64,000 nucleotides of DNA. Origin: Fimbriimonadaceae bacterium (GTDB lineage Bacteria; Armatimonadota; Fimbriimonadia; Fimbriimonadales; Fimbriimonadaceae). The notes under the pieces are model-generated. The model was not told where the DNA came from. It worked only from the letters and a program-made list of their open reading frames with translations, and did not search any database. The position numbers were made by a program, and so were the translations under genes. Each line of letters starts with the position of its first letter. Position 1 is the stretch's first letter. Positions 8,077 through 23,304 of this stretch are shown here, in pieces. The stretch is from assembly GCA_019187105.1 (NCBI GenBank), contig JABAQM010000001.1, positions 2,634,734 through 2,698,733 of the forward strand, given 5' to 3'.

Positions 8077-8868
8077 ATGAACAACTTCCACTATACGGAT
8101 ACACAGTTTCAGATTCGACCGAATGGCACCCAGGCCACTGCCAAGGAGCCAGCGGAAAACTTGACGACGACGGGAACGTCGCCCAAGGTACCGATCCTTG
8201 TAGTTGAAGACGACCAAGCGATTCGGAGGCTGTTGGCGGCTGCGTTTTCTGACTCCGAATTTCGGCTAGTTGAAGCTGCGACATTCTTGCAGGGACTCGC
8301 CGCCGCAACGAAGGGCCGTCCAGAGGTCATTCTTCTTGACCTGAACCTTCCCGACTTCGATGGCGTGGAATTTGTCCGGCGTGTCCGCACCTGGTCACAG
8401 GTACCGATTATCGTCGTATCTGCAGAGGGGCATGAGGACCGCAAGGTTGACGCCCTTGACGCCGGAGCGGACGACTATGTCACCAAACCGTTCGGAGTTG
8501 CCGAGCTCATGGCGCGCGTTCGCTCATCCTGGCGCCGCTACCAGCGGAGCGGGCTCCCAACCTCGGAGCCAAACATAGAAGTTGGCGATGTCGTGATCAA
8601 TCTGGATACGCGGCAAGTCAAAAAGAACGACGAATTGATCCACCTAACTCCCATTGAATATAACTTATTAGTACTGCTTGCGAAGCACGCAGGGCGCGTC
8701 ATTACTCAGCGCCAGTTATTGACTACAGTTTGGGGTGAAGAATACTCCGAGGAGTCTCAGTATCTGCGAATTTACATTGGGTACCTTCGCAAGAAATTAG
8801 AAGACGATCCCGCCAATCCGAAGCTGGTCATCACCGAGCCTCGAGTGGGATACCGCATTCAGGGCTGA
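8077..8868 (+). CDS. OmpR/KdpE-type response regulator
   Basis: Two-component response regulator: an N-terminal extension of about 38 residues, receiver domain from PILVVEDDQ (residue 39) with phospho-acceptor Asp88 in ILLDLNLPD and the conserved Lys in YVTKPFG, then a winged-helix DNA-binding domain ending GYRIQG. The receiver (VPIIVVSAEGHEDRKVDALDAGADDYVTKP-like region, with DALDAGADDY) is closest in style to KdpE. No kdpABC or paired kinase is adjacent, so it is an orphan. AAGGAG lies only 2 bases before the ATG; the TTG at 8161 is an alternative start and would remove most of the N-terminal extension. Confidence 0.88.
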   Translation: MNNFHYTDTQFQIRPNGTQATAKEPAENLTTTGTSPKVPILVVEDDQAIRRLLAAAFSDSEFRLVEAATFLQGLAAATKGRPEVILLDLNLPDFDGVEFVRRVRTWSQVPIIVVSAEGHEDRKVDALDAGADDYVTKPFGVAELMARVRSSWRRYQRSGLPTSEPNIEVGDVVINLDTRQVKKNDELIHLTPIEYNLLVLLAKHAGRVITQRQLLTTVWGEEYSEESQYLRIYIGYLRKKLEDDPANPKLVITEPRVGYRIQG

Positions 8869-8985
8869 AGCGGCAATTCAGACAATTTTCATATCGCCGA
8901 CGAAGCCTTACTTGCCTTGTTCATAGCATAACTATCGTAACCTGAATACGAAGCGCACCTGTTGCGCATAAGTGCGAGGTAGACG

Positions 8986-9537
8986 ATGACGCTAGATAGA
9001 ATGCGGAAGTTTGACGAGTTTTGCGGAATGGCTTATCAGAAGGCCCTAAGATTCGCCAAAAGTATTGTCAGGGAGCCAGAGGAAGCTGCTGATATCCTGC
9101 AAGAGGCGTTCGTAAAGGCATACCGCGCTTACGAAAAGACCGATGAATTGCCGACGGGACCGAACTGGCTCTATCAGATCATCCGAAGGGTCCACATTGA
9201 CCGAATCAGGGCGCGTAATCGCCGCGTTCAGACCGTATCTCTTCAGGAAACGGCGCTGACCCACCCTGGATTCGAGCCGATCGACCCGGACTCGGACATT
9301 GAACGGACTGTGATGGCTCAGGTCCCCGACACGGAATTCGAAGAGCTTCTTTCGAGCTTGACTCCCGACGAGGAGCGAGCACTCCGCCTCAGTCTCCGGG
9401 AGGATATCACCGACGTCGAAATGGCCCGGCAGATGAACTGCAGCAGAACGTCATTCAAACGCAAGATGGCTGTTGCGCGCCGCAGACTGGTGCAAGCGGT
9501 ACGGACCTCCGGTGCGGTGCCAGCCCCCGGAACATAA
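8986..9537 (+). CDS. RNA polymerase sigma factor, ECF type
   Basis: 183-residue extracytoplasmic-function sigma factor. Region 2 is visible from CGMAYQKALRFAKSIV to QEAFVKAYRAYE and PNWLYQIIRRVHIDRIRARNRR; region 4 from LLSSLTPDEERALRLSL to the helix-turn-helix MNCSRTSFKRKMAVARRRL. The region 4 helix is atypical (TSFKRKM rather than the usual GTVKSRL). No anti-sigma factor gene is next to it; the following genes are small stress-type genes with good ribosome sites, which may be its targets (inference). GAGG lies 6 bases before the ATG at 8986. Confidence 0.85.
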   Translation: MTLDRMRKFDEFCGMAYQKALRFAKSIVREPEEAADILQEAFVKAYRAYEKTDELPTGPNWLYQIIRRVHIDRIRARNRRVQTVSLQETALTHPGFEPIDPDSDIERTVMAQVPDTEFEELLSSLTPDEERALRLSLREDITDVEMARQMNCSRTSFKRKMAVARRRLVQAVRTSGAVPAPGT

Positions 9538-9548
9538 GGAGACTCACC

Positions 9549-9839
9549 ATGAAAACTTTTGAAGAGAAAGACAGTGCCCCCACTTGGATGGCAATCGCTG
9601 TTTCGGCGGCGGTTGGCGCCGCTACCTATCTGATGCTCAAGAAAAAGGGCACTGCGGTCATACCGATGCTCGTCGCTGGTGCACGCAACGGACTGGGCTC
9701 ATTCGCCATGACCAAGCTTGCTACGTCGCCGTTCTTTCGACATTCATACAATCACGAACAGCACCATGATGGTGTCCATAGCAAGCCTGCCGTCAACCAG
9801 CGCAAGCGAACTTCTACGTTCGGTGAGGAGACACGATGA
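9549..9839 (+). CDS. Small predicted membrane protein, unknown function
   Basis: 96 residues with one hydrophobic segment near 13-28 (MAIAVSAAVGAATYLML) followed by a second weaker one (VIPMLVAGARNGLG). The C-terminal third is hydrophilic and His/Lys-rich (HSYNHEQHHDGVHSK). AAGGAG stands 7 bases before the start. It begins 11 bases after the ECF sigma gene and its stop overlaps the next ATG as ATGA, so all three are one operon. No family recognised. Confidence 0.6.
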   Translation: MKTFEEKDSAPTWMAIAVSAAVGAATYLMLKKKGTAVIPMLVAGARNGLGSFAMTKLATSPFFRHSYNHEQHHDGVHSKPAVNQRKRTSTFGEETR

Positions 9840-10357
9840 ACCAAAAGGACGGGCTGCACGAGCTATATATCCACACGCTTCAAGACTCATACAGTGCTGA
9901 GAAGCAAATCACCAACGCACTGCCAAAAGTTATCGATGCCGTTAACGATGGACAGTTGAAGCAGGCACTTTCTTCGCATCTGCAGGAGACGATCGGGCAT
10001 GCAGCTCAAGTCAAGGCCATGATCGAAACCTACGGTGAGGATGCCGATGGTGAAATGTGTGATGGAATGAAGGGCCTCTTGGAAGAGGGCGAATCCATCA
10101 TCAAAGATTTCGACAACGGTCCCGTGCGGGATGCGGCGCTAATCAGCGCTTGTCAAAAGGTCGAGCATTACGAAATGGCTGCGTACGGCACCTTGCGGGT
10201 GTTTGCGTCCCACCTCGGCTACCAGGAAGATATCAACCGCTTATCGGACATCCTGGGCCAGGAATACAATGCGGACGACACACTGACGCAAATTGCCGAA
10301 GGAAGTGTGAACTGGAAGGCTGAAGGCGCCCAAATGCCGAATATGGCGGGAAACTAA
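9836..10357 (+). CDS. YciE/YciF-type ferritin-like protein (DUF892)
   Basis: 173-residue four-helix ferritin-like protein of the YciE/DUF892 family, members of which are induced by osmotic and general stress. Family features: LYIHTLQDSYSAEKQI at the N-terminus, CDGMKGLLEEGESII in the middle, and the ACQKVEHYEMAAYGTL block whose Glu and His residues would bind metal, with QEYNADDTL near the end. Stress role is known for relatives, not shown here. Overlaps the upstream gene by 4 bases, has a GAGGAG site, and is followed after 2 bases by a DUF1328 micro-gene. Confidence 0.88.
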   Translation: MNQKDGLHELYIHTLQDSYSAEKQITNALPKVIDAVNDGQLKQALSSHLQETIGHAAQVKAMIETYGEDADGEMCDGMKGLLEEGESIIKDFDNGPVRDAALISACQKVEHYEMAAYGTLRVFASHLGYQEDINRLSDILGQEYNADDTLTQIAEGSVNWKAEGAQMPNMAGN

Positions 10358-10359
10358 CG

Positions 10360-10524
10360 ATGACTCGATGGGCAGCGCTCTTTTTGGTCGTTGCCATTGT
10401 CGCTGGAATCTTTGGTCTATCTGGTCCGGCGGGAACGTCGACCGGGTTAGCCCAGGCCTTGTTCATCGTTTTCCTGGTCTTTTTCCTCCTCTCGGTTTTC
10501 GTGAGGCGGCAAAGCCAAGCTTAG
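10360..10524 (+). CDS. DUF1328 small membrane protein (YtjA-like)
   Basis: 54-residue hydrophobic micro-protein starting MTRWAALFLVVAIVAGI and ending FFLLSVFVRRQSQA, with two transmembrane helices separated by GLSGPAGTSTGLAQ. This layout (RWA..FLV, an AG.FG turn, AGT..G.A, a second helix, short basic tail) matches the DUF1328/YtjA family, widespread in stress operons. It begins 2 bases after the DUF892 stop, so it belongs to the ECF sigma operon. It is short enough to be missed by standard ORF cut-offs. Confidence 0.8.
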   Translation: MTRWAALFLVVAIVAGIFGLSGPAGTSTGLAQALFIVFLVFFLLSVFVRRQSQA

Positions 10525-10551
10525 CGGTTAATCGGCAGGAGCAAAAAACTC

Positions 10552-10890
10552 ATGTATTCAACAGATCCAAGAGCGACTAAATTCGGCGCACCGTGGCGGC
10601 AAGTCAACTGGGATGAGATGACTTATGACGAGGCCAGCGACTTGCTGACGGAGTATGAGACCGACTTTCGCCAATTCGAGAATGAGAACCGCGAAGGTTT
10701 GAGGGATTGGTGGAACGAGGGAAGGCGTGACATCCAGCGTCAAATGGCGGAAATGCGCGAAAAGCTGGATTCGATTCAGGAGAACGCGCCCGACGCCTGG
10801 GGCGAAATGAAAGACGCCTTTGCCGGAGCCATGTCCGAGCTATCCGAAGGCTACCACCGGACGGTTCGGGAGCTCAGAAAGAAAGTTTAA
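10552..10890 (+). CDS. Acidic coiled-coil-like protein of unknown function
   Basis: 112 residues, strongly helical and charged, with heptad-like spacing from about 25 to 75 (FENENREGLRDWWNEGRRDI, MAEMREKLDSI) and a helical end (YHRTVRELRKKV). AGGAG lies 10 bases before the ATG. No signal peptide or membrane segment, so cytoplasmic. Last gene of the sigma factor operon; a GC-rich hairpin follows. No known family recognised. Confidence 0.65.
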   Translation: MYSTDPRATKFGAPWRQVNWDEMTYDEASDLLTEYETDFRQFENENREGLRDWWNEGRRDIQRQMAEMREKLDSIQENAPDAWGEMKDAFAGAMSELSEGYHRTVRELRKKV

Positions 10891-10921
10891 CGTCCAACTC
10901 CAACCTCCATACACCCCACAA

Positions 10922-10949
10922 TGGCCGGTCCTTCTCTCGGGGCCGGCCA
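10922..10949. terminator. GC-rich hairpin between convergent genes
   Basis: TGGCCGG at 10922-10928 pairs with CCGGCCA at 10943-10949, a 7-bp stem with a 14-base loop, placed exactly between the ends of convergent genes 10890 and 10957. No strong T-tract on either side, so efficiency is uncertain. Confidence 0.45.
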
Positions 10950-10956
10950 CCTCACA

Positions 10957-12852
10957 TTACGAGGATTCCGATGGTCCCTTTTGAGGCCTTTCCGCAATCT
11001 CCATGATCGTGGATATCAGTTGATTGGTGTCAACGGGCTTAGCCAGGAATGAGTCAAATCCGGAAAGGATCGCGCGGTCTCGATCCTCGTGCCCGGTAAA
11101 GGCGGTTAGCGCAATAGCGGGGACTTTGGCGACCGCAGGATCGTCATGGGCACGAAGCCTCTGGATGAACGTGAAGCCATCCATTTCTGGCATCCCGAGG
11201 TCGCTGAGCACGACGCTGGGTTTGGTCGACTCCAGTAGTTGGAGACCGGCTTGACCGCTACCTGTGGCGGTCACGGTGGCGCCGTGGATGGACAACAGTT
11301 TTTCGACGACGCGCCGGGTCGCCTCATCGTCTTCGACCACGAGGACACGCATGCCTGCCATAGACCTCGGCGTGCCGTTCTGTACTTGTCCCTTAGGGGA
11401 TGAAACCTCGGCAATGGGTAGCCGAACGGTGAAGGTCGCCCCCTTTCCCTTGCCGTCGCTTTGGGCCGTTACCGTACCGCCGTGAGCCTCGACGAGTTGG
11501 CGGACGATCGCCAGACCAAGACCCAAGCCGCCGTGCCGGCGAGAAATCGTGGGGTGGCCCTGTCGAAACCGATTGAAGATCACGGGAAGGACCTCCGGTT
11601 CGATTCCTTGCCCGTCATCGGTTACCGTAATGACGGCGATTCTCCCCTCCCTCTTGCAGCCCAGACTCACGTGTCCCCCCTCGTTGGTGAACTTGAGCCC
11701 ATTGGTTACAAGGTTCGAGATGACCTGGTGGAGGCGGCCGGCATCGGCTCGGACGAGAACTCCCTGATCGCACGCATCGCACGAAAGGGTCCGCTCGTTC
11801 AGCATGGCGGTCGGAGCTTGCTCCCGAACCACCGCCTGCAATTGCTCCCCGAGGTCGACAATCTCCTTATGCAGGGCGAGATTTCCCGTAACGATGCGGC
11901 TCATATCGAGCAGGTCGTCAATGAGCTGGGCCTGAACTTTGGCAGCCCGGTCAATCGCGGTGAGGCCCTCGCCAAGAAACGGTTGAGGATCGCTTGCGCT
12001 GCAAAGGATCTCGGTCCATCCGAGGATAGCCGTCATCGGTGTGCGCAGCTCGTGGGACAGCATGGCAACGAAGTCATCCTTTGAACGATTGCGTTGCTCG
12101 GCGTCGCTGCGCTTGGCACGCTCGTGGGCAAGCGCCCTTTCTCGAGTCCTCTCGAGTTCGTGCTGAGCGGTGATGTCCTGGATGAAGACAGGTATCCGCT
12201 CCAAATCAGGCGATGCGAACACCCGAAACTGGTACCACTGGCTGTCAGCACTGGCAGGTAGATCGATCGTCACCGGCAGACTCGTCGTGAACGATCGTTC
12301 CATGAGTTTTCTCACCGAGGGCTGAAGGTGGGCGGAGAAAACCTCCCAAATCGGTCGGCCCACCACTTCGCTTTCCTCACGCTCGATGAGCCGCAAAGCA
12401 GCCGGATTGACCATCTGGATTTGCCAGTGTTTGTCGATCATGAAGAAGCCGTCGGAGATCCGATTGAGCACTTCCGAAAGTCGCTCTTCCGTTTCCAGCT
12501 TCTGCAAGTTAGAGCGACGCTCCGACTCTCGCCGTCTTATCGCGATCTCGCAGATGACCGCGACCAGCATCCATGTTGCGATGAACGACGTAATGTTGAC
12601 CGGCGATAGCACTCGCGACGAGGGTTGGACAAAGAAGAACGTTCCGCAAAGGATCCCCAGGCTAAGCGCCAGGAGACCCGGAAGAAAGCCGCCGGTAAGT
12701 GCCGCCGCAGCAATGGGCACGCCAAAGAAGATGAAAGCGGCTTGCTCACCTACTTGTCCTGCGATCGAAAAGCGGAAACCTGCAACCAGGGCCGTTCCAA
12801 GGACGGCGATTGCATATGGGCCGTAACGCCTTAATTGCTGGGCCTTAGACAT
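10957..12852 (-). CDS. Hybrid sensor histidine kinase (DUF4118-PAS-HisKA-HATPase-REC)
   Basis: 631-residue membrane hybrid kinase. Residues about 10-105 hold four hydrophobic helices of the KdpD-type DUF4118 kind (FFGVPIAAAALTGGFLPG, then FFFVQPSS). A PAS domain covers about 120-230 (ISDGFFMIDKHWQIQMVNPA). The dimerisation helix has phospho-acceptor His267 in MLSHELRTPMTAILG; the ATPase core shows the N box (LVTNGLKF), DDGQGI and GGLGLGLAI. The C-terminal receiver (about 500-620) has VLVVEDDEAT and the acceptor Asp in VVLSDLGMPEMDG. No partner output regulator is adjacent; the KdpE-like orphan at 8077 is the nearest. Confidence 0.92.
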   Translation of the reverse strand: MSKAQQLRRYGPYAIAVLGTALVAGFRFSIAGQVGEQAAFIFFGVPIAAAALTGGFLPGLLALSLGILCGTFFFVQPSSRVLSPVNITSFIATWMLVAVICEIAIRRRESERRSNLQKLETEERLSEVLNRISDGFFMIDKHWQIQMVNPAALRLIEREESEVVGRPIWEVFSAHLQPSVRKLMERSFTTSLPVTIDLPASADSQWYQFRVFASPDLERIPVFIQDITAQHELERTRERALAHERAKRSDAEQRNRSKDDFVAMLSHELRTPMTAILGWTEILCSASDPQPFLGEGLTAIDRAAKVQAQLIDDLLDMSRIVTGNLALHKEIVDLGEQLQAVVREQAPTAMLNERTLSCDACDQGVLVRADAGRLHQVISNLVTNGLKFTNEGGHVSLGCKREGRIAVITVTDDGQGIEPEVLPVIFNRFRQGHPTISRRHGGLGLGLAIVRQLVEAHGGTVTAQSDGKGKGATFTVRLPIAEVSSPKGQVQNGTPRSMAGMRVLVVEDDEATRRVVEKLLSIHGATVTATGSGQAGLQLLESTKPSVVLSDLGMPEMDGFTFIQRLRAHDDPAVAKVPAIALTAFTGHEDRDRAILSGFDSFLAKPVDTNQLISTIMEIAERPQKGPSESS

Positions 12853-13055
12853 ACGGTCACTGTAGAGCCTATCGGGCGAATCATATGAGACCTATAAGAA
12901 TGAGCCTCGCCGGATAGGGTAGGCATAAATACAGGACGGCGACTGCCTCAGGCTGGTTCCACCTATGACTTTTATATGAACGCATTCCGGGCTCTTCTGT
13001 CAGATTTACCGGCAATTTCGTATTAGGGAAAGTACCGCCAGACGGAGGAGTTCCG

Positions 13056-13457
13056 ATGAAGAAGCTCACTTTTCCCCTCATAGCGGGGTTATTTGCCATT
13101 CTGCTTGGATGCGCAAATACCGTTGAAGGGGTCAAGAAGGATGCCGAGGAGGCCTCTAGGTCTACAGAGAAAACCATGGAAAAAACCTCAGAACAAATGG
13201 GTGAAACGGCTCGGGACATTGGGGCTGCTGCTACCTTGACACCCCTCATCAAGAATGCGATTATCGCAGATCCGACACTCAACGACTCCGGCAACAACAT
13301 CAATGTCGAGACGACAGAAGAGAAGGTCACCTTAAAAGGTCATGTCAGGACAACCGAAATGAAGATGCTTGCCCAAAGCATCGCCGAACGGACCCTGCTT
13401 GACAAGAAAGCAACCCAGACCGTCGATAACCAGCTCGAAATACGCCCCTCTTCCTGA
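13056..13457 (+). CDS. BON-domain lipoprotein
   Basis: 133 residues. Signal peptide with lipobox: MKKLTFPLIAGLFAILLGC, so lipidation is expected at Cys19 and the protein is anchored to an envelope membrane. A Lys/Glu-rich linker (EGVKKDAEEASRSTEKTMEK) resembles entericidin-like and YMGG stalks. From about 60 on follows one BON domain (LTPLIKNAIIADPTL to VTLKGHVRTTEMKMLAQSIAE to VDNQLEI). BON proteins such as OsmY act in envelope stress. GGAGGAG precedes the ATG by 6 bases. Confidence 0.85.
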   Translation: MKKLTFPLIAGLFAILLGCANTVEGVKKDAEEASRSTEKTMEKTSEQMGETARDIGAAATLTPLIKNAIIADPTLNDSGNNINVETTEEKVTLKGHVRTTEMKMLAQSIAERTLLDKKATQTVDNQLEIRPSS

Positions 13458-13502
13458 CGTTCCCAACGTGAGGTCCAACCGGTAATTCGGAACAAAAACA
13501 AA

Positions 13503-14132
13503 ATGAAGAATAACATACATGTTGCGTTTAGAACGCATGAGGCCGCCTCACGGGCGGTCGGCGCGCTACTAGATCACGGTGTCGACGCACACGACATCAG
13601 CGTTTACGTCAAGAACATGCCGCAAGCTTGGGAGCAGCCTTCGACAACCGGAACAGAAGTCGAATCGAAGGCAACCGAGGGCATAACAGTGACGACGGCA
13701 GCCGATGCCGTCGAAGGAGCGACCAAGGGCGCGGGAATCGGCCTCGGTATTGGCGTGTTGGCGGCCTTGGCCTCCGTGATGGTCCCGGGAGTCGGATTTG
13801 TTCTCGGCGGCGCTGCCTTGGGTACTGCTGTGGGTGGTGCTGTGGCGACGACCGCAGCCGGAGCCATTGCCGGCGGAGCCTACGGCTACCTCAAGGATCA
13901 GGGCATCGATGAGGAGGCAGCCCGCTACTTATCGAACCATTTGGAAACCGGCGGCGTACTAGTAAGTGTCTCCGGCCCTAGCAACAACGTCTCGATCGAC
14001 ACGATTCAGAAGGTCCTTACAAAATATACGGAACAGCAATACGCTGTTGCCGATATTCGCGAGGGTGACGAAAGGCCCGCAGAAGAGGCCATGAATCCTC
14101 AGATCTTCGTTACACCGCAACGCCCTGTCTAG
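13503..14132 (+). CDS. Glycine-zipper membrane protein with YflT-like N-terminus
   Basis: 209 residues. The N-terminal 40 (NNIHVAFRTHEAASRAVGALLDHGVDAHDISV) has the fold pattern of the YflT/GSP17M general stress domain. Residues about 78-130 form a Gly/Ala-rich hydrophobic region (GLGIGVLAALASVMVPGVGF, GGAALGTAVGGAVATTAAG), a glycine zipper likely to sit in a membrane. A second alpha-beta stretch follows (DEEAARYLSNHLETGGVLVSVSG). Probably a stress-induced envelope protein; exact role unknown. A strong hairpin stands downstream. Confidence 0.65.
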   Translation: MKNNIHVAFRTHEAASRAVGALLDHGVDAHDISVYVKNMPQAWEQPSTTGTEVESKATEGITVTTAADAVEGATKGAGIGLGIGVLAALASVMVPGVGFVLGGAALGTAVGGAVATTAAGAIAGGAYGYLKDQGIDEEAARYLSNHLETGGVLVSVSGPSNNVSIDTIQKVLTKYTEQQYAVADIREGDERPAEEAMNPQIFVTPQRPV

Positions 14133-14149
14133 GGCTTACTGCCCAACGG

Positions 14150-14224
14150 TCCGCGCCCCAGCCGTTTGCCTTACTCCTCCCGGCAGCAAGGGGCGCGGAT
14201 CCACATCCGTTGATTTGGTTTTTT
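14150..14224 (+). terminator. Strong hairpin with distal T-run (probable terminator)
   Basis: TCCGCGCCCC at 14150-14159 pairs perfectly with GGGGCGCGGA at 14190-14199 (10 bp, 30-base loop). A run of six T lies at 14219-14224, 19 bases after the stem, which is far for a classical terminator; it may instead be part of the 5' region of the gene at 14250. Confidence 0.5.
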
Positions 14225-14249
14225 GGATTGCGTTTGAGAGAAGTTTTCT

Positions 14250-16535
14250 ATGAAAAAAAGTGGAGTGTCAAGAATTGTAGTGCTCGGATCCTATGTGCCG
14301 CGTCAATGCGGGATCGCGACGTTTACCTGCGACCTGTTACATGCCATGGCGGCGCACGGCCATCACGTGGAAGCGATTGCCGTTGAAGATCACTACGGTG
14401 CCTATCAGTATCCGCTTGAAGTCACATACAAAATTCGACAGCACGAGTTAGCCGAATACATTGGTGCCGCCTCGTGGATCGATCGGCGAAACTTCGACTA
14501 CGTCTCCGTCCAGCACGAATTCGGAATCTATGGTGGGCAATCCGGAAGCTACCTGCTGGAGTTGCTCAAGAGGGTCAACATGCCGATTGTCCCCACCTTG
14601 CACACAATTCTCGAAGAGCCTTCTGCGGACCAGCGGAGGGTTTTTGAGGAACTCATGGATCTCAGCGACAAAGTTGTCTGCATGAGCAAGAAGGGGGCAC
14701 AGTTGCTCGAGACCGTTTACGGCGTAGACTCGGCAAAGGTCGAAGTCATTCCCCACGGCATTCCGTCGGTAGACATAAAGTCCGTTTACCGAGCGAAGGC
14801 GTCGCTAGGGTACCGGGATGAGCGGGTTCTGTTTACGTTTGGACTGCTTTCGCCAGACAAGGGCGTCGAGGACGTCATCTCGGCGATGCCGGATATCGTT
14901 CGGGAGCATCCAAATACGGTCTATTCAGTGGTTGGTGCAACCCACCCCCAGATCCGCGCAGCTCACGGCGAATCCTATCGGGATTCTTTGGTGAGGCTTG
15001 CGTCCGATATCGGCATGGCCGACCACGTTCGATTTGAGAACAACTACGTTTCGCTCGACGAGCTGACTACCCGCCTCCATGCTTGTGATATCTACATCAC
15101 CCCCTATCGAAAGAGGCAGCAGATTACGTCCGGAACGCTGGCCTATGCTTACGGGTGCGGCAATGCCGTGATATCGACTCCTTACTGGCACGCCTCCGAG
15201 CTATTGGCAGCTGGCCGGGGCGTGCTGGTTCCCTTTAACTGTCCAAAATCGATCGCTTTCGAGTCCTGTCGCCTCTTGAGCGATGACCATCGGTTGGGCC
15301 AAATCCAGAAGGCGGCGTTCGAAGCCGGCAAGGAAATGCAGTGGCCGGAAGTTGGAAAACGCTACGCCGAGGCCTTTCGGTCGATTGAGCGGCGCCCAGC
15401 TTCGATCGTGAACCTTGGCGATCGAATCCCCTTATCAGAGGAGCTCGTCGTCGAGGAGGCGATTCCCGGTCTGAACTATCTCGTCGGGCTCACGGATCGC
15501 GTTGGCATCCTGCAGCACTCGACGTACGGCATCCCTAACCGGCACGAGGGATACTGTTTGGACGACTGCTCAAGAGCTGCTCTCGTGTTGTCTCGGGTCT
15601 TGACGCTGCAAAACACAAGCGACGACGTCAGGAGGGCCCTCGATACCAATCTCGCCTTCATTGGGCATGCGCTAGATCCCACCACGAGGCAATTCAGGAA
15701 CTTCATGGCTTTCGATGGAACGTGGCTTGGAGAGCCGGTTTCCTCGGACGCGATCGGACGAGCGGTCTGGTCGCTCGGTACCATCGCGGCGAAGGACGTT
15801 TCCTCAAACCGGCGACAATACGCCAGAGCGATGCTTTCTGCGTCAAAGCACGCGATGCAATCGGTCACGAGCTTGCGGGGCAAGGCCCTTTTGATCCTTG
15901 GTCTGCTCGAGTGTGCCCGCGCCGACATAAGAGAATTCGAGTCGATCAGAATGTCGTTGGTGAGGGAACTGTCCGACCTCTGGCAAGCGCACGCCGATAA
16001 AGAGTGGCCTTGGATCGAAAGCGTCCTGCTCTACGACAACGCCTTGCTGCCGCATGCCCTGATCGCGGCCGGTTCACACGATGCGGATTACGAACTTCTG
16101 GATAAGGGTCTGGTGGCTCTGGACTGGCTGTGCGATATCCAGTCCACACCAATCGGGACGTTTCGGCCCATCGGCAGCGACTCCTTCTACTCCCGTGGCT
16201 GCCAGCGGTGCAACTTTGACCAGCAGCCGCTCGAGGCGTGGACGGTTATCGAAGCCTGCCTGGCCGCCTACCATGCCACACAGGACGAACGATGGCTGGT
16301 TTCAGGTGGTAGCGCATACCAGTGGTACCACGGGAGGAATGACCTGGAAGTTTCAATGGTTGACCCAGAAACGGGTGGTTGCTACGATGGCCTCACTCCA
16401 TACGGACCGAATCGGAACCAAGGCGCAGAAGCCGTTATAAGTCTTGTAGGTGCGAAGACCGCACTGGCGCTGGCCAACGTCAGCGTCCCAGTTTATTCTG
16501 CTACACAATCCATGACGGTGTTTGACGTTGCATGA
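14250..16535 (+). CDS. GT4-family glycosyltransferase with C-terminal alpha-barrel domain
   Basis: 761 residues, two parts. Residues 1 to about 380 form a GT-B glycosyltransferase of the GT4 kind (PRQCGIATFTCDLLHAM at the nucleotide-binding loop start, VSVQHEFGIYGG, IPHGIPSVDI, FGLLSPDKGVEDVI, and TSGTLAYAYGCGNAVISTPYWHASE near the sugar donor site). Residues about 390-755 are helical with YCLDDCSRAALVL, SRGCQRCNFDQQPLEAW and TGGCYDGLTP, as in (alpha/alpha)6-barrel glycosidase-like domains. Its stop overlaps a GH130 gene by 4 bases, so both act on the same, probably mannose-containing, glycan (inference). Confidence 0.85.
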   Translation: MKKSGVSRIVVLGSYVPRQCGIATFTCDLLHAMAAHGHHVEAIAVEDHYGAYQYPLEVTYKIRQHELAEYIGAASWIDRRNFDYVSVQHEFGIYGGQSGSYLLELLKRVNMPIVPTLHTILEEPSADQRRVFEELMDLSDKVVCMSKKGAQLLETVYGVDSAKVEVIPHGIPSVDIKSVYRAKASLGYRDERVLFTFGLLSPDKGVEDVISAMPDIVREHPNTVYSVVGATHPQIRAAHGESYRDSLVRLASDIGMADHVRFENNYVSLDELTTRLHACDIYITPYRKRQQITSGTLAYAYGCGNAVISTPYWHASELLAAGRGVLVPFNCPKSIAFESCRLLSDDHRLGQIQKAAFEAGKEMQWPEVGKRYAEAFRSIERRPASIVNLGDRIPLSEELVVEEAIPGLNYLVGLTDRVGILQHSTYGIPNRHEGYCLDDCSRAALVLSRVLTLQNTSDDVRRALDTNLAFIGHALDPTTRQFRNFMAFDGTWLGEPVSSDAIGRAVWSLGTIAAKDVSSNRRQYARAMLSASKHAMQSVTSLRGKALLILGLLECARADIREFESIRMSLVRELSDLWQAHADKEWPWIESVLLYDNALLPHALIAAGSHDADYELLDKGLVALDWLCDIQSTPIGTFRPIGSDSFYSRGCQRCNFDQQPLEAWTVIEACLAAYHATQDERWLVSGGSAYQWYHGRNDLEVSMVDPETGGCYDGLTPYGPNRNQGAEAVISLVGAKTALALANVSVPVYSATQSMTVFDVA

Positions 16536-17605
16536 CCTTGTTTGAAAGAAACTCCAACAACCCGATTCTGAAACCATCCGACTGGCCCTACCCCATCAAT
16601 TCGGTTTTCAACCCCGGGGCGACGAGGCTCGCCGATGGCAGGACCCTACTCCTATGCCGATGTGAGGACTACCGCGGCATCTCGCACCTTTGCAAAGCGG
16701 TCTCGGACAACGGGATCGACGGCTGGACGATCGATTCAAAGCCGACGTTCGAAGGAAGGCCACGACGATTCCCGGAAGAACTGTGGGGTGTAGAAGACCC
16801 CCGCATTACGTTCGTGGATGAGTTTGGGCAGTATGCGATCGCCTACACGGCCTTTGGAGAAGGCGGTCCCGGCGTGGCGTTGGCCTTTACGAAGGACTTC
16901 GTGACGTATCGCCGGCGAGGATTGGTGATGCAGCCCGAAGATAAGGATGCGGCCCTCTTTCCCAAGCGATTCAAGGAAGGCTATGCCCTCATCCACCGAC
17001 CCGTTACCGGTGAAAGGGCAGATATGTGGGTCTCCTACTCACCTGACCTGAAGAACTGGGGCAGGCCAAAGTTGGTGATGAAGGCTCGCCGCGGCGCCTG
17101 GTGGGATGCAAACAAAATCGGCCTATCTCCGCCACCCATTGAAACCAGCGAAGGCTGGCTCGTGCTCTACCACGGGGTGAGAAAGCACGCCTCCGGGAGC
17201 CTCTACCGCGTCGGCGCCATGTTGCTGGATCTCAACGACCCCACAAAGCTACTCCGGCGCGGCCATGAGTGGATCTTTGGTCCGGAGGCGGACTACGAGC
17301 GTCAAGGGGACGTACCAAACGTGGTCTTTCCGACCGGGTGGACGGTGGGACCCGACAACGATACGCTGTTTATGTATTACGGCTGCGCCGATACCGCGAT
17401 CTGCTTGGCAACCACCAGCATTCAGAAGATGCTTGATTGGCTGATGCAAAACGGCAGGTTGGACGCTTATCTGGAAGAGGAATCGATGCTGATGACCGAC
17501 ATTCCGGGGCAGCCGCACTCGGCGCACGAGCCGGTGACGAGCGAGAATATCGACGAAGAGGAGCTTGAGCTGGACTTCATCCCGACGCGAGGCTCGGGAG
17601 GGTGA
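16532..17605 (+). CDS. GH130 family mannoside phosphorylase/hydrolase
   Basis: 357 residues of the five-bladed beta-propeller GH130 family, whose known members phosphorolyse or hydrolyse beta-mannosides. Catalytic Asp89 is in the VEDPRI motif (87-92); NPGATRLADGRTLLLCRCED near the N-terminus and GWLVLYHG near 208 are further family blocks; the MYYGCAD motif near 285 closes the propeller. Starts 4 bases before the stop of the glycosyltransferase gene (ATGA). No signal peptide. Phosphorylase versus hydrolase cannot be settled by eye. An acidic tail (ENIDEEELELDF) ends the protein. Confidence 0.9.
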   Translation: MTLFERNSNNPILKPSDWPYPINSVFNPGATRLADGRTLLLCRCEDYRGISHLCKAVSDNGIDGWTIDSKPTFEGRPRRFPEELWGVEDPRITFVDEFGQYAIAYTAFGEGGPGVALAFTKDFVTYRRRGLVMQPEDKDAALFPKRFKEGYALIHRPVTGERADMWVSYSPDLKNWGRPKLVMKARRGAWWDANKIGLSPPPIETSEGWLVLYHGVRKHASGSLYRVGAMLLDLNDPTKLLRRGHEWIFGPEADYERQGDVPNVVFPTGWTVGPDNDTLFMYYGCADTAICLATTSIQKMLDWLMQNGRLDAYLEEESMLMTDIPGQPHSAHEPVTSENIDEEELELDFIPTRGSGG

Positions 17606-17689
17606 TCATACGCATTCCATACGGTTACTTCCCAGATTCTTCGGTCTCCCAAAGAACCCAGGTCGTATTCTGAACTGAGGTCCAATAGA

Positions 17690-17989
17690 ATGCCAACTGG
17701 AGACAAATCCAAATACACGGACAAACAAAAGCGACAAGCTGAGCATATCGAAGACAGCTATCGCGAAAAAGGTGTTGGTGAGGAGAGATCGGAGAGAATC
17801 GCCTGGTCGACCGTCAACAAGCAAACTGGCGGCGGTAAGAAACCAGGCGGCTCAGGCTCCGCAGCAGCAACGAAGTCGGCCCCGGCCAACAAGGCCATGG
17901 GCGGGCGGAAGGCTTACTCCTCACGGAGTCGTAGCGAGGCGGCGAGAAAGGGCTGGGAAACTCGAAGGCGTAACGCTAACCAGCGTTAG
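17690..17989 (+). CDS. Small KGG-like basic stress protein
   Basis: 99 residues, very polar. The N-terminal half (GDKSKYTDKQKRQAEHIEDS, then ERIAWSTVNKQTGGGKK) matches a widespread family often labelled plasmid stabilisation or stress protein without experimental support. The C-terminal part is Ala/Ser/Arg-rich and ends SEAARKGWETRRR, similar to KGG repeats. GAGGT lies 9 bases before the ATG. Likely cytoplasmic and disordered, perhaps DNA-binding. A terminator follows at 18013. Confidence 0.65.
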   Translation: MPTGDKSKYTDKQKRQAEHIEDSYREKGVGEERSERIAWSTVNKQTGGGKKPGGSGSAAATKSAPANKAMGGRKAYSSRSRSEAARKGWETRRRNANQR

Positions 17990-18012
17990 GATCGGTCCTC
18001 GTTATTACGGTA

Positions 18013-18060
18013 GGTAGGCGCTGGCCCCCATCGGCAGGGTCGGGGCCTACCATTGTTTTT
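18013..18060 (+). terminator. Rho-independent terminator
   Basis: GGTA 18013-18016 and GGCCCC 18023-18028 pair with TACC 18048-18051 and GGGGCC 18042-18047 (a five- to six-base bulge on the left arm), followed by ATTGTTTTT. It ends transcription of the gene at 17690 just before ligD. Confidence 0.7.
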
Positions 18061-18079
18061 GGGCAAAATCATTGGCGTA

Positions 18080-20386
18080 GTGACGCAAAAGGCCGACAAG
18101 CTCAACCGGTATCGCGAAAAGCGCAAGTTCGACATCACTTCGGAACCCGAAGGAACTGTCGCGGCTGAAGCTGGCCGCATCTTTGTTGTCCAGGAGCATC
18201 ACGCCCGCAGGCTCCATTGGGATTTGCGACTTGAGCACAACGGCGTCCTCTTGAGTTGGGCTGTTCCCAAGGGTCCGCCCGAAAAGATCGGTGACCGAAA
18301 GCTAGCCGTTCATGTGGAAGACCACCCGATCGAATATGCGAGTTTTCAAGGGGAGATTCCGGCCGGCCAGTATGGCGCCGGAACCGTTAGCCGGTGGGAC
18401 AGAGGAACTTGGGAGCCTTATGGAGATGTGGATACCCAGTTGGAAGAGGGAAAGATCGAGTTCCGAATCGACGCCCAAAGGTTGAAGGGAGATTACGTTC
18501 TCGTACGCCTGGAGAGCGAAAAGGACGAGTGGCTGTGGATGAAAATGAAGGCGAAGAGCCGACCGCAGCCCACCAGAGAAAGACCATCCGTGGTCGAACC
18601 AATCGGAACTCCGGGAGCGGTACCGCAGGAGCTCGCTCCCATGCTCTGTTCGCCCGCAACCGCGCCCCCGACAGCCGACGGTTGGCTGCATGAAATCAAA
18701 TGGGACGGGTATCGCATCCTTGCCTGGGTCGGGGAAGACGATACGGAGTTCAAAACACGGAACGGTCTGGCGATCCGATTTTCAGGATTGGAGAAAGCCA
18801 TGACGCAGGCCTTTCCGCCTAACTCAGTCATCGATGGCGAGGTGGTCGTCTTCGACGAAAAGGGAGTCAGTCGGTTTCCGCTTCTTCAGCAGGCGCTTCG
18901 AACATCGAAAACCGGAAGCGCAGTGTTCATCGCGTTTGACTGTCCGTTTCTGCAGGGAAACGATCTCCGCTCTCTACCGCTCGGGGTCCGCAAGGACGCT
19001 CTGTCGAAGGCGTGCTCCACCCAGCCGCGAGTCCGGTTGTCTGACCATCACGCCGGTCCAGGAAAGGCCCTGCTTGAAACCGCATGTCGAGCTGGACTCG
19101 AAGGAATCGTGAGTAAGCGTGCAGACAGTGCGTACCAGTCAGTCCGGTCGAAGAACTGGATCAAAGTGCGGTGCGAAAAGCCTCTAGAGGTCGTGATCGG
19201 CGGTTTCACGCTGATGTCCGACGCGGATGATCGAATCGGCGCCATCTTAGTGGGCGACAAGGGCGCCGACGAGAAGCTCCACTACTACGGCAGGGTCGGG
19301 ACCGGCTTTAGCGACGGACTTCGGCACGATTTGTTTCGACAGCTGAAGGCCCTGCAGGTAGATACTAGCCCCTTCGAACCGGCTCCTCCCCGAGACCCCA
19401 GAGCCAAGCTGTTCTGGGTCAGCCCGGAAGTCCGGGCTTCCATTCAGTTCCTCGATTGGTCCGCGGACGGGCTGCTTCGCCAGGCTAAGTTGCTCGGCAT
19501 TCGCGAGACCATACGGGCTGAAAGTCCCAGCAAGTCCATGAGCAAGATAACCAATCCGGGGCGCGTGGTGGATCGCGCAAGCGGGCTGACCAAGGGAGAA
19601 GTGGCAGCCTACTACCACGAGATTGCCCCACTCCTTCTACCGCACCTGGCCAACCGGCCCCTCAGCCTCCTGCGTTGCCCGGAAGGGGTGGATTCGGAGT
19701 GTTTCTTCCAGAAACACCGGATGCAGGGCCTGCCGGATTCGGTCCACAGCATCGAGGTTAAGGAAGATAACGAGAAGGGAGCACCGTATGTGTACGTGGA
19801 CTCGACTGAGGGCCTGGTCGCCCTCATTCAGTTTGGCGTGATCGAGATCCATCCTTGGGGTAGCCATGTTGACGACCTGGAGCGTCCCGACATCTTGATT
19901 TTTGATCTTGACCCCGCCGATGACGTGCCATGGGCGACCGTGGTCGACGCTGCATTTCACGTGCGCGATCTCCTGGTCGGCTTGGGCTTTGATCCGGTAA
20001 CTAAGGTCACCGGTGGTAAAGGTATCCACGTTGTGGTGCCGGTTCATCCCGCTCTTGGCTGGACGGCGGCCAAACGCTTCTGTGAAGCCTTCGCCAAAAA
20101 CATGGCCATCCGAGATCCAAAGCGTTACATCGCCAAAGTATCGAAGGCGGAGCGCCAGGGCAAGGTGCTGATCGATTACCTTCGCAACGGAAGGGGCGCA
20201 ACCGCGGTTGCACCGTACAGTTTGCGCGCCCGCCCAACCCTACCTGTCGCGGTACCCGTATCCTGGGACGACTTGGCCGGCCTCGCCCCGGGCGGGAAGA
20301 CGATCGCCCAGGTCATCGGCGACGCCGCGAAGGGTATCGATGCGTGGGCAGACTTCGAGGACCATCGCCGCAAGTGGCCCGGCTAA
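18080..20386 (+). CDS. ligD: Multifunctional NHEJ DNA ligase D
   Basis: ATP-dependent ligase with end-processing activities for non-homologous end joining. Three domains in the order PE-LIG-POL (residues from the GTG at 18080): 3'-phosphoesterase about 10-165 (HHARRLHWDLRLEHNG, with WAVPKGP); ligase about 185-490 with nucleotide-accepting Lys207 in EIKWDGYR, DGEVVVFDE and the EGIVSKR motif; polymerase/primase about 505-768 (RPLSLLRCPEGV, LIFDLDPADDVPW, TGGKGIHVVVP). The GTG at 18080 is chosen because the TTG at 18053 lies in the terminator T-run; no clear ribosome site at either. Its stop shares CTAA with the convergent ku gene. Confidence 0.95.
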   Translation: MTQKADKLNRYREKRKFDITSEPEGTVAAEAGRIFVVQEHHARRLHWDLRLEHNGVLLSWAVPKGPPEKIGDRKLAVHVEDHPIEYASFQGEIPAGQYGAGTVSRWDRGTWEPYGDVDTQLEEGKIEFRIDAQRLKGDYVLVRLESEKDEWLWMKMKAKSRPQPTRERPSVVEPIGTPGAVPQELAPMLCSPATAPPTADGWLHEIKWDGYRILAWVGEDDTEFKTRNGLAIRFSGLEKAMTQAFPPNSVIDGEVVVFDEKGVSRFPLLQQALRTSKTGSAVFIAFDCPFLQGNDLRSLPLGVRKDALSKACSTQPRVRLSDHHAGPGKALLETACRAGLEGIVSKRADSAYQSVRSKNWIKVRCEKPLEVVIGGFTLMSDADDRIGAILVGDKGADEKLHYYGRVGTGFSDGLRHDLFRQLKALQVDTSPFEPAPPRDPRAKLFWVSPEVRASIQFLDWSADGLLRQAKLLGIRETIRAESPSKSMSKITNPGRVVDRASGLTKGEVAAYYHEIAPLLLPHLANRPLSLLRCPEGVDSECFFQKHRMQGLPDSVHSIEVKEDNEKGAPYVYVDSTEGLVALIQFGVIEIHPWGSHVDDLERPDILIFDLDPADDVPWATVVDAAFHVRDLLVGLGFDPVTKVTGGKGIHVVVPVHPALGWTAAKRFCEAFAKNMAIRDPKRYIAKVSKAERQGKVLIDYLRNGRGATAVAPYSLRARPTLPVAVPVSWDDLAGLAPGGKTIAQVIGDAAKGIDAWADFEDHRRKWPG

Positions 20387-21276
20387 CCGCGCTTCTGCTT
20401 GGGATTGTCCTCTTCCGTTTTGCCTGAGAGGCTCTCGCGCAGGAGTGCAGCCAAGTCGATGACGTTGGCGGATTCTCGCAACGGCTCGTCTTCCGTGGGG
20501 GCCTTCGGCGTAAGTCCACCGGACTTCACCCGCTCTTCGATGAAGTTGATGAGTGCGGTCCGATACTCGTCCTCGTACTCACTCGGGTCCCAGTTCACCG
20601 TCATCGCTTCGACCAATTGCCGGGCAAGATCATGCTCTCGTTCGGAGATGTTATAAGCCGATGGATCCTCTCTCGGTACGCGGAAGGCAGAAGGCTTTCG
20701 CAACTCCTGTGCGAACCGGAGGAGCATAACGACCATTGCAGGACCTCGCGGAACCAAAGCGGCCAGATACTCGCGGGTTCGGATTGCTACCTTTGCGATG
20801 CCGACCCGGTCGGTTTCGGCAAGAACGTCCCGCAAGAGAACGTAACCCTTTTCCGCCTTCTTCTTTGGCACCACGATGTAGGGCTTATCGTAAAAGATCT
20901 CGTCGATTTCCGACCGTTGCACGAAGGCCTTGACGTCGATGGTCTTTACCGAATCCAGCTGGATGTTTTTAAGCTCTTCGGGGGTTAACACCACGTAGTT
21001 GTCGTCGCTGTATTCGTAAGCTTTGACGATCTCGCTCCAGGGGACTTCTTCCCCAGTGGCCTCGTTAATACGCTGGTACCGGATGCCTGCTTTGTCTCGG
21101 CCATCCAGCATCCGAAAATGCAGGTCGGATCGCTGTTCCAACGAATAGAGGGCGATGGGCACATTGACTAATCCGAAAGAGATGCTTCCCGACCATATCG
21201 GCCGCCCGTTACCTGAAGATTCTTCGGTTGAATCCTCGGTTTCGGTAGCGGCTCTATCCGAGTTCTTCTCCGGCAT
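20383..21276 (-). CDS. ku: Non-homologous end joining protein Ku
   Basis: 297-residue bacterial Ku homodimer subunit that binds DNA ends and recruits LigD. Core features: GRPIWSGSISFGLVNVPIALYS-type opening (IWSGSISFGLVNVP), HFRMLDGRDKAGIRYQRIN, GYVLLRDVLAETDRVGIAK and VLTPEELKNIQ. The ATG at 21276 (MPEKNSD) is chosen; the frame is open up to 21402 but that stretch has no Ku similarity. The tail from about 255 (APTEDEPLRESANVIDLAAL to KQKRG) is the usual variable basic end. It converges on ligD with a 4-base stop overlap and diverges from the DUF892-repeat gene. Confidence 0.95.
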   Translation of the reverse strand: MPEKNSDRAATETEDSTEESSGNGRPIWSGSISFGLVNVPIALYSLEQRSDLHFRMLDGRDKAGIRYQRINEATGEEVPWSEIVKAYEYSDDNYVVLTPEELKNIQLDSVKTIDVKAFVQRSEIDEIFYDKPYIVVPKKKAEKGYVLLRDVLAETDRVGIAKVAIRTREYLAALVPRGPAMVVMLLRFAQELRKPSAFRVPREDPSAYNISEREHDLARQLVEAMTVNWDPSEYEDEYRTALINFIEERVKSGGLTPKAPTEDEPLRESANVIDLAALLRESLSGKTEEDNPKQKRG

Positions 21277-21521
21277 GCATATAAAGGTACGACAAAAACC
21301 TCTGGCGATGCTAGAAATGTTCGCTGTTGGTTCAAGTCGCCGCTGGCGAGCATCGGGGCTGTTGCTGCTTGCCGTCCACTGCCGTATCCGGCGTTGGGAC
21401 AAGTCTCACGGACGGTATACAGCCAGCCCATCCACCATGCCGTGGCTGGCTCATACCGCATTCTTACGAGGGAGTCCAACCATCTGTCGGCAAAAAGATT
21501 TAATCGCGCGTTTCGCCATAT
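21277..21521. promoter_or_regulatory. Divergent intergenic region of ku and the DUF892-repeat gene
   Basis: 245 bases between two divergent genes, so it should hold both promoters. A hairpin is visible, AGCCAGCC 21421-21428 with GGCTGGCT 21444-21451. I could not assign -10/-35 boxes with confidence. Confidence 0.4.
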
Positions 21522-23264
21522 ATGCCGAAACAGCCCGAATCTCAGATGAAAATCGTGGACAATTCGGCTCTTTTTCTTTCGGGGGTTAACGACCTCATAA
21601 GTGCTGAGGAGCAAATCCTTCAAGCTCTCCCGAACCTAGCCGAAATGGCGCAGGCGGCGGAGCTAAAGAACTTGCTGACGAGTCACCAGGACCAGACCAA
21701 ATCCCAAAAGGAGCGCCTGAACCAGGTGTTGCAAGCCATGCAGGCAAAGCCGTCGGGCGAGCCCTGCAAAGCAATGACCGGGTTGCTGGAAGAAGGCTCG
21801 AGCCTTCTTGAAAAGGTGTCAGAGGGTCCGGTTCGGGACTTGGCCCTCGTTACTGCCGCAGCCAAGGTTGAGCACTACGAAATGTCAGCCTACACTTCGG
21901 CCGCCTCGCTTGCGGAGTCTCTGGGATTTTCCGATCTTGCGGAGATTCTCCGAAAGTCGCTAAACGAGGAGATGGCCGCAGCGAGGAAGCTGGAGACGTT
22001 CGCACGGCAATCGCTCAAGTTGGGCAAGCGCTGGAGTACCGCCGAAGAGTACGCGGAAGGTCAGGGCGATTCCGAGTCCATGGGGAACGGTAACACTGGC
22101 CGCCAGAAGGGAGCCAAATCGACGAAATCAACGACGCAGGACAAGGAGAAACTAACCATGCCACGGACAATGGAAGATGATTACCGAACCAGGGATGACG
22201 ACCGTCAAAGGTATCGCAGTCGCGATGATGACGACCGCTATTCTCGATCTCGAGGTGGCGGTCGTTCCAGTTATGGGGACGACGAATATGAAAACCGTTC
22301 CCGCACATCCCAACAGCGCGAGCGTGACGAGTATGGTCGCTTTGTCAGCGAAGACGACCGCGGTGCTTCCCGCTCCCGCAGTGGCGGTCGTTCCGGCTAC
22401 GGAGACGACGAATACGACAATCGGTCTCGCGCCGCCCAACAGCGTGAGCGTGACGAGTATGGCCGATTCGTAAGCGAAGATGATCGCGGAAGCTCACGAT
22501 CTCGGGGTGGCCGCGGCGGTGGATGGGACGACGATTACGATGGCCGCTCCAGGGCCGCGCAACAGCGCGAGCGCGACGAGTACGGCCGCTTTGTCAGCGA
22601 AGACGACCGCCGTGGCGGATCACGATCGCGCGGACGCGGCGGCTACGACGACGACAACGACGGCCGGTCGCGAGCTGCCCAGCAGCGAGAGCGCGACGAG
22701 TATGGTCGCTTCGTCAGCGAAGACGATCGAGGCGGATCACGATCGCGGGGTCGTGGCTACGATGACGATGATCGCTACTCACGATCGCGAAGTGGCGGCG
22801 GTGGCGGAATGCGGTCCGGTGGCTGGGACGATGAGCACGAGAATCGATCGAGAGCGGCTCAGCAGCGAGAGCGCGACGAGTACGGTCGATTCACCAGCGA
22901 TGACGACCGCGGTGGCCGTGGCGGAATGCGCTCAGGTGGACGTGGATACGATGACGATGACCGAGGCTCGCGATCGCGGGGCGGCGGTGGCGGAAGCCGC
23001 GGCGGCTGGGACGACGAGCACGAGAACCGATCGAGAGCAGCCCAGCAGCGAGAGCGCGACGAGTACGGTCGATTCACCAGCGATGACGACCGTGGTGGCG
23101 GTAGTGGCATGCGATCACGAGGGCGCGGTTATGACGATGACGATCGTTATTCCCGGTCGAGAAGTGGTGGCAGCGGCGGTTGGGACGACGAACATGAGAA
23201 TCGGTCACGGGCGGCGCGACAGCGCGAACGTGACGAATATGGCCGCTTCGTCAGTGATCGATAA
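21522..23264 (+). CDS. DUF892 ferritin-like domain fused to Arg/Asp/Gly repeat domain
   Basis: 580 residues in two parts. Residues about 10-170 are a YciE/DUF892 ferritin-like domain (LISAEEQILQALPNLAEM, MTGLLEEGSSLLEKV, AAKVEHYEMSAYTSA), similar to the protein at 9836. After a linker (STKSTTQDKEKLT) residues about 213-580 are low-complexity and consist of seven copies of an RERDEYGRF(V/T)S unit joined by DDR/SRSRGG/GYDDDD stretches; the spacing is 40-42 residues for the first three steps and 58-61 for the last three. Highly charged and surely disordered. An internal ATG at 22158 has an AAGGAG site, so the repeat part may also be made alone. Divergent from ku. Confidence 0.85.
   Translation: MPKQPESQMKIVDNSALFLSGVNDLISAEEQILQALPNLAEMAQAAELKNLLTSHQDQTKSQKERLNQVLQAMQAKPSGEPCKAMTGLLEEGSSLLEKVSEGPVRDLALVTAAAKVEHYEMSAYTSAASLAESLGFSDLAEILRKSLNEEMAAARKLETFARQSLKLGKRWSTAEEYAEGQGDSESMGNGNTGRQKGAKSTKSTTQDKEKLTMPRTMEDDYRTRDDDRQRYRSRDDDDRYSRSRGGGRSSYGDDEYENRSRTSQQRERDEYGRFVSEDDRGASRSRSGGRSGYGDDEYDNRSRAAQQRERDEYGRFVSEDDRGSSRSRGGRGGGWDDDYDGRSRAAQQRERDEYGRFVSEDDRRGGSRSRGRGGYDDDNDGRSRAAQQRERDEYGRFVSEDDRGGSRSRGRGYDDDDRYSRSRSGGGGGMRSGGWDDEHENRSRAAQQRERDEYGRFTSDDDRGGRGGMRSGGRGYDDDDRGSRSRGGGGGSRGGWDDEHENRSRAAQQRERDEYGRFTSDDDRGGGSGMRSRGRGYDDDDRYSRSRSGGSGGWDDEHENRSRAARQRERDEYGRFVSDR
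22158..23264 (+). other. Possible internal translation start of the repeat domain
   Basis: In-frame ATG at 22158 (MPRTMEDDYRTRD) preceded by AAGGAG with 9 bases spacing, a better initiation site than that of the full-length gene. Use of it would give a 368-residue protein made only of the repeat region. Ribosome use is not shown by sequence alone. Confidence 0.4.
22311..23243 (+). repeat. Seven coding repeats with RERDEYGRF core
   Basis: Coding tandem repeat inside the DUF892 fusion gene. The Gln-Gln (or Arg-Gln) codons that open each unit begin at 22311, 22437, 22560, 22680, 22860, 23043 and 23217. The repeat is conserved at protein level while third codon positions vary, so it has been selected as protein. 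Confidence 0.9.
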
Positions 23265-23304
23265 CGGTCGGCGCAAAACGACCAAAGTAGCCTAACACTG
23301 GTCC

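Follow-up and report, generated by a model that had tools for sequence, protein, structure and literature searches.

The gene under study lies in the 64,000-nucleotide stretch of DNA analysed here (the window) and was found to join a DUF892 bundle, in a single reading frame, to a long disordered repeat tail, with a Shine-Dalgarno (SD) sequence and an ATG at the joint. The reading preferred here, with a probability of about 70%, is that of a dual-start gene derived from genes of the yciF/yciG type, whose products, as predicted from sequence, would be a bundle-tail protein and a free tail. Ribosomes entering at the DUF892 start would make a protein of 580 (or 572) aa in which a YciF-like diiron-type bundle carries a 368-aa disordered polyampholyte tail, and those entering at the internal SD and ATG would produce just the tail, a disordered protein of the stress type that resembles KGG/YciG. 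As no stop codon separates bundle from tail, the long product follows whenever the bundle is translated; the short product is a prediction based on the conservation of the initiation region at the joint, and we infer that both are made. The first-pass annotation described one fusion protein; the fusion stands, but the internal start (ATG 22158) had been missed, and this changes the reading to two products. The features are collected in Table 1.

Table 1. Features of the dual-start candidate gene and its neighbourhood (window coordinates)
Feature	Coordinates	Strand	Basis
Syntenic block: response regulator, ECF sigma, second DUF892 (9836-10357), hybrid histidine kinase, GT4, GH130, ligD, ku	8077-21402		Same order in G024 C5; domain scans
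Long ORF, DUF892 bundle and repeat tail, 580 aa	21522-23264	+	Open frame; same fusion in G024 and G013
DUF892/YciF-like four-helix bundle, residues 16-164	21567-22013	+	Pfam PF05974, E 2.7e-40
Shine-Dalgarno AAGGAG, 9 nt before the internal ATG	22143-22148	+	Sequence
Predicted nested in-frame gene, free tail protein of 368 aa, starting MPRTMEDDYR	22158-23264	+	Internal ATG and SD; weak local RNA structure; separate MPRT-start gene in G010
Seven RERDEYGRF units, first to last	22317-23249	+	Exact motif count; TRF

The long frame is open without interruption over 580 codons, and an alternative start at ATG 21546 would give the 572-aa form. The bundle is clearly a member of the DUF892/YciF-YciE family (PF05974) by profile, fold and conserved residues. 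Its profile score was 138.5 bits against a curated cut-off of 23.7, and its sequence matched the YciF structures 2gyq (3.7e-29) and 2gs4 (8.9e-25) and also 4eru in the PDB; in Foldseek, 2gyq was matched with a TMt of 0.89 and 2gs4 with 0.92-0.94, with a fold match to 4eru too. These matches bear out the ferritin-like half that had been proposed for the protein. The AlphaFold model of the bundle is confident (pLDDT blocks of about 80-95 across residues 20-160), and the residues E29, H55, E117, H118, E120 and E150, which are conserved in the family, are retained. The Gln at position 58, where the helix-B Glu is lost, was considered as a hint that the metal site is dead, an idea that was dropped, Gln being common there (21/69 domains). 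Members of this family are usually stand-alone proteins of about 165-220 aa, whereas the bundle in the window carries a long tail.

The tail extends over 368 aa from residue 213 and includes seven exact copies of RERDEYGRF, at residues 266, 308, 349, 389, 449, 510 and 568. The spacing is 42, 41 and 40 residues and then 60, 61 and 58, in agreement with the seven units of about 40 and later about 60 residues first described, and the repeat arrays were recovered independently by TRF. The description of this half as highly charged and disordered also held up, the charged fraction being 0.47 and the AlphaFold pLDDT below 50 for most of residues 168-554, the last repeat possibly forming a weak helix. 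With 23% Arg, 17% Asp, 18% Gly, 12% Ser, 6% Tyr, no Lys and a net charge per residue of -0.016, the tail is a balanced polyampholyte. Across 21 repeat-unit pairs pN was 0.096 and pS 0.707, with synonymous differences near saturation, and the dN of 0.10 and dS of 2.1 indicate strong purifying selection; a low pN alongside a nearly saturated pS argues that the motif is kept by selection on the protein. Profile scans found no Pfam or NCBIfam family over the tail. Weak matches of CCT, NF-YA and GapR profiles to the tails were disregarded as low-complexity sequence, and a match in the gene's own genome (L002) was attributed to chance (46% over 37 residues, E 0.15), E-values for low-complexity tails being only rough. 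A 271-codon open frame rich in Ala and Thr overlaps the repeats in another plus-strand frame (window 22480-23295) and is taken to be a by-product of the repeat codon pattern.

The internal in-frame ATG falls exactly where the tail begins and is preceded by gacAAGGAGaaactaacc, so that the start codon and SD which mark an in-frame nested gene both lie inside the open frame. An SD of at least 6 nt was found at only 4 of the 375 internal in-frame Met codons of the 64-kb window, which by itself served as the baseline. A scan for one promoter type detected no sigma-70-like promoter inside the DUF892 part, and a separate tail transcript is thus without support. Cas11b of a type I-B CRISPR system (PMC11899642) is a known case in which an internal start, in frame, yields the C-terminal part of a protein as a separate product; the inner product predicted here differs in being a whole disordered protein, which has its own gene elsewhere and is nested behind different bundle families.

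The joint was compared across a wider set of tails. A scan for RDExGRF...DD in one genome per species (84,980 species) yielded 75 stretches, and 47 frames were taken as true tails. Pfam assigned hemerythrin to 24 and DUF892 to three of 46 tail frames; the fused set used, defined by direct comparison, comprised 25 hemerythrin-like and three DUF892 genes, the fused-gene hosts belonging to Armatimonadota, Alphaproteobacteria and Gammaproteobacteria. All 28 fused genes had a joint ATG preceded by an SD 4 nt long or longer. At the stricter length of at least 5 nt the joint SD was found in 27/28, against 13/79 other internal in-frame Met codons and 4/100 out-of-frame ATGs. Each gene offered one to four candidate Met codons at the joint and the one with the best SD was taken, which slightly inflates the count. 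When the set was thinned to 21 lineages, the figures were 20/21 at the joint and 9/67 for controls (Fisher P 6e-12). The SD is mostly encoded by AAG/CAG GAG codons, and the choice of SD-forming codons had a log10 P of -9.5 under each gene's own usage, with related genes not independent of each other. In L066 and L095 it is formed by other codons (QKG and NGE), which argues for selection at the nucleotide level. In 28 of 30 genes the region from -25 to +20 had less structure than windows of matching GC taken from the same gene (Wilcoxon P 1.3e-8), and the G+C content of the junction lay below that of its gene in 21/21 (mean 0.50 vs 0.65). Joint SDs were also seen in cases outside the first sample, namely G013 (AAGGAG), G642 (AAGGAG) and the Beijerinckia indica plasmid pBIND01 (AAGGA), whose gene stands in the public record as a single 482-codon hemerythrin-domain protein. 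In L104, L050 and L100 the tails follow much diverged hemerythrin-like helices, for which the hemerythrin profile gives a low score or none, and AGGAGG and an ATG are found at the joint.

Tails behind a DUF892 bundle are carried by the window, which lies in an Armatimonadota genome, by the related Armatimonadetes bacterium SZAS-8 (G024, contig JAFDWX010000005), by G013 and by one alphaproteobacterium (L066). The SZAS-8 gene is an in-frame fusion of the same layout with 592 codons, and that of G013 has at least 482 codons. Among 201 genomes of the phylum, setting aside one sub-threshold hit, only the window, G024 and G010 have a DUF892 frame of at least 400 codons; the G013 gene is a fourth. 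Within the family, 3 of 85 genomes contain the exact RDEYGRF pattern, which makes the tail patchy in distribution, and pattern scans of Alphaproteobacteria and of the families of two carriers gave few further carriers, so that either the tail family is unevenly distributed or the exact patterns were too stringent. No plasmid record covered most of the query, and among the matches listed the DUF892 part alone was matched. A tree built from 69 DUF892 domains groups the fusions of the window, SZAS-8 and G013 (97/94), attaches G010 to them weakly, and places the alphaproteobacterial L066 with a DUF892 protein of E. coli that is regarded as YciF (98/86). The tree separates the fusions of the Armatimonadota from the alphaproteobacterial one, which indicates independent joins; counting the hemerythrin fusions, the tail family is judged from the sequences to have been joined to bundles at least three times independently.

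It could be argued that only the long protein is made and that the internal SD and ATG are a relic of a former second gene. The single long CDS annotated on the Beijerinckia plasmid agrees with this, and G010 suggests that the genes were once separate. A relic would be expected to decay, however, and here almost every fused gene still has the SD, the ATG and the unstructured stretch, whether its host belongs to Armatimonadota, Alpha- or Gammaproteobacteria, and in three or more joins made independently; a plain fusion is rather unlikely. G010 is itself a counter-case to the two-start reading: its DUF892 gene has a different disordered tail with no internal SD, and a separate downstream gene, which starts MPRTSERYRS and lacks a good SD, holds seven RDEYGRF units. 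The different tail, shared by G010, L012 and L163, is Gly/Tyr/Arg-rich (475-codon frame), and the RDEYGRF gene begins 176 nt on.

The opposite arrangement, in which the product of the internal start is the important one and the bundle-tail protein a minor by-product, is favoured by the strength of the internal SD, there being none at either candidate upstream start in the window, and by the free-standing tail genes L057, L072 and L085. It is nevertheless unlikely, as the bundle retains its conserved Glu/His positions and is kept in frame in three genera, the long start in G024 has an SD of its own (GGAGG before TTG), and repeated, independent joining to this one type of bundle suggests a role for the joined form. 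Other tail genes with no in-frame bundle stand close to DUF892, 176 nt (G010), 226 nt (L099) and 246 nt (L082) after it, and DUF892 was found within about 2 kb of the tail genes L050, L058, L100, L104 and L109.

For the two-product gene that we prefer, the origin would lie in neighbouring genes of the yciF/yciG type, the intervening stop having been lost and the ribosome-binding site of the second gene retained. In E. coli, yciG, encoding a disordered KGG protein, adjoins yciF and yciE (both DUF892), and the yciGFE operon of enterobacteria thus pairs the same bundle with a disordered stress protein. The genes there are separate, with the disordered one first, whereas in the window there is one frame, the bundle comes first and the second start is nested; by this analogy the window gene resembles a fused yciF-yciG operon. 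Among the open-licence papers listed, none seemed to deal with these fusions or with their internal starts. The remark in the first-pass annotation that no function was known for such a fusion overlooked the close parallel of yciG and yciF, where KGG and DUF892 stand side by side. KGG proteins are RpoS-controlled, are reported to be intrinsically disordered and are required for stress resistance (PMC7161692; PMC5437024). From the analogy with YciF and YciG we infer a protective role in stress: the pair might protect cell contents when the cell is starved, dried or oxidatively stressed, the bundle would deal with iron or peroxide, and a bundle dimer might tie several tails together with free tails filling the space between.

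The likeness of the tails to KGG/stress-induced acidophilic repeat proteins (PF10685) is indirect. GWxGDxxGHSEAAxxGW units occur in related tails, that of G013 included, and their GWFGDxxGHSEAARRGW form is similar to KGG units. A profile of 127 GW units matched a KGG protein of G013 at E 2e-9 (best of 500 shuffles 0.033), with other KGG proteins not above noise. This 141-aa protein (L174, G013:C123) has GRGWHGDPQGHAEAGRKGG between its KGG repeats and so contains both kinds of unit. Through this one bridging protein the tail family appears, by sequence, to resemble the KGG kind. In L174 the KGG repeats are seen to be mixed with an GWHGDPQGHAEAGRKGG unit, which bridges the two kinds of repeat. 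The window tail has only RDExGRF in common with the wider tail family; the KGG profile gave no match in it and no GW or KGG unit could be detected, and it is for this reason not filed as KGG.

The gene starts divergently from ku, as first stated. The window from 8077 to 23264 is syntenic with G024 C5, the fusion following Ku, and the block is thus conserved in two genera; it also holds a Gly/Ala-rich protein with no Pfam match between the hybrid histidine kinase and GT4. LigD and Ku were identified by reading their sequences alone. The block looks like a stress-response and DNA-repair island. The stress-sigma motif GGAAC-N-GTT was not enriched in the window and was absent upstream of the gene, and nothing convincing was found among upstream motifs shared across the block. 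It had been proposed from this setting that the protein coats or compacts DNA in stress, and a role alongside Ku/LigD in break repair can be added. The proposal is consistent with the position beside ku and ligD, with the synteny in G024 and with a fold related to Dps at the superfamily level. Against it, neither Ku nor LigD was seen next to the gene in the parts of G010 and G013 that were read (the G013 contigs being short), which limits the linkage to the window and G024; the tail is net neutral and free of Lys, the best structural matches of the bundle are YciF, Dps ranking far below in Foldseek, and no DNA-binding motif was found. DNA coating is accordingly very unlikely. That an assembly error or frameshift joined two genes is practically negligible, as no frameshift was seen and in-frame fusions with the same kind of junction occur in independent assemblies of two other genera (G024 and G013), where the repeats, whose absence from close relatives had been raised as an objection, are present.

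What might have been a curiosity of one genome becomes a testable rule, that a disordered tail is repeatedly joined to iron-binding bundles with a translation start kept at the joint. On a broader proposal our opinion is evenly divided: a recurrent design in which a disordered stress-type gene is captured in frame, in distant bacteria, behind different four-helix iron-binding bundles (DUF892 or hemerythrin) with its own start always kept, so that one mRNA would give anchored multivalent and free tails in a set ratio, possibly tuning a protective condensate. Should both forms be produced, the gene would offer a simple, natural means of fixing how much scaffold there is relative to free disordered protein, as well as a handle on the joint role of the poorly understood YciF/DUF892 and KGG stress proteins. 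Free tails may be absent from predicted proteomes, as the sole annotated example examined (Beijerinckia) lists the long protein alone. The same RDExGRF...DD scan also brought up a small, unrelated-looking family (L046, L049, L065, L112 and others) that shares RDExGRF within the sequence MSKRELIEPNPGDKRYVRRDExGRFTESDDVGRSL.
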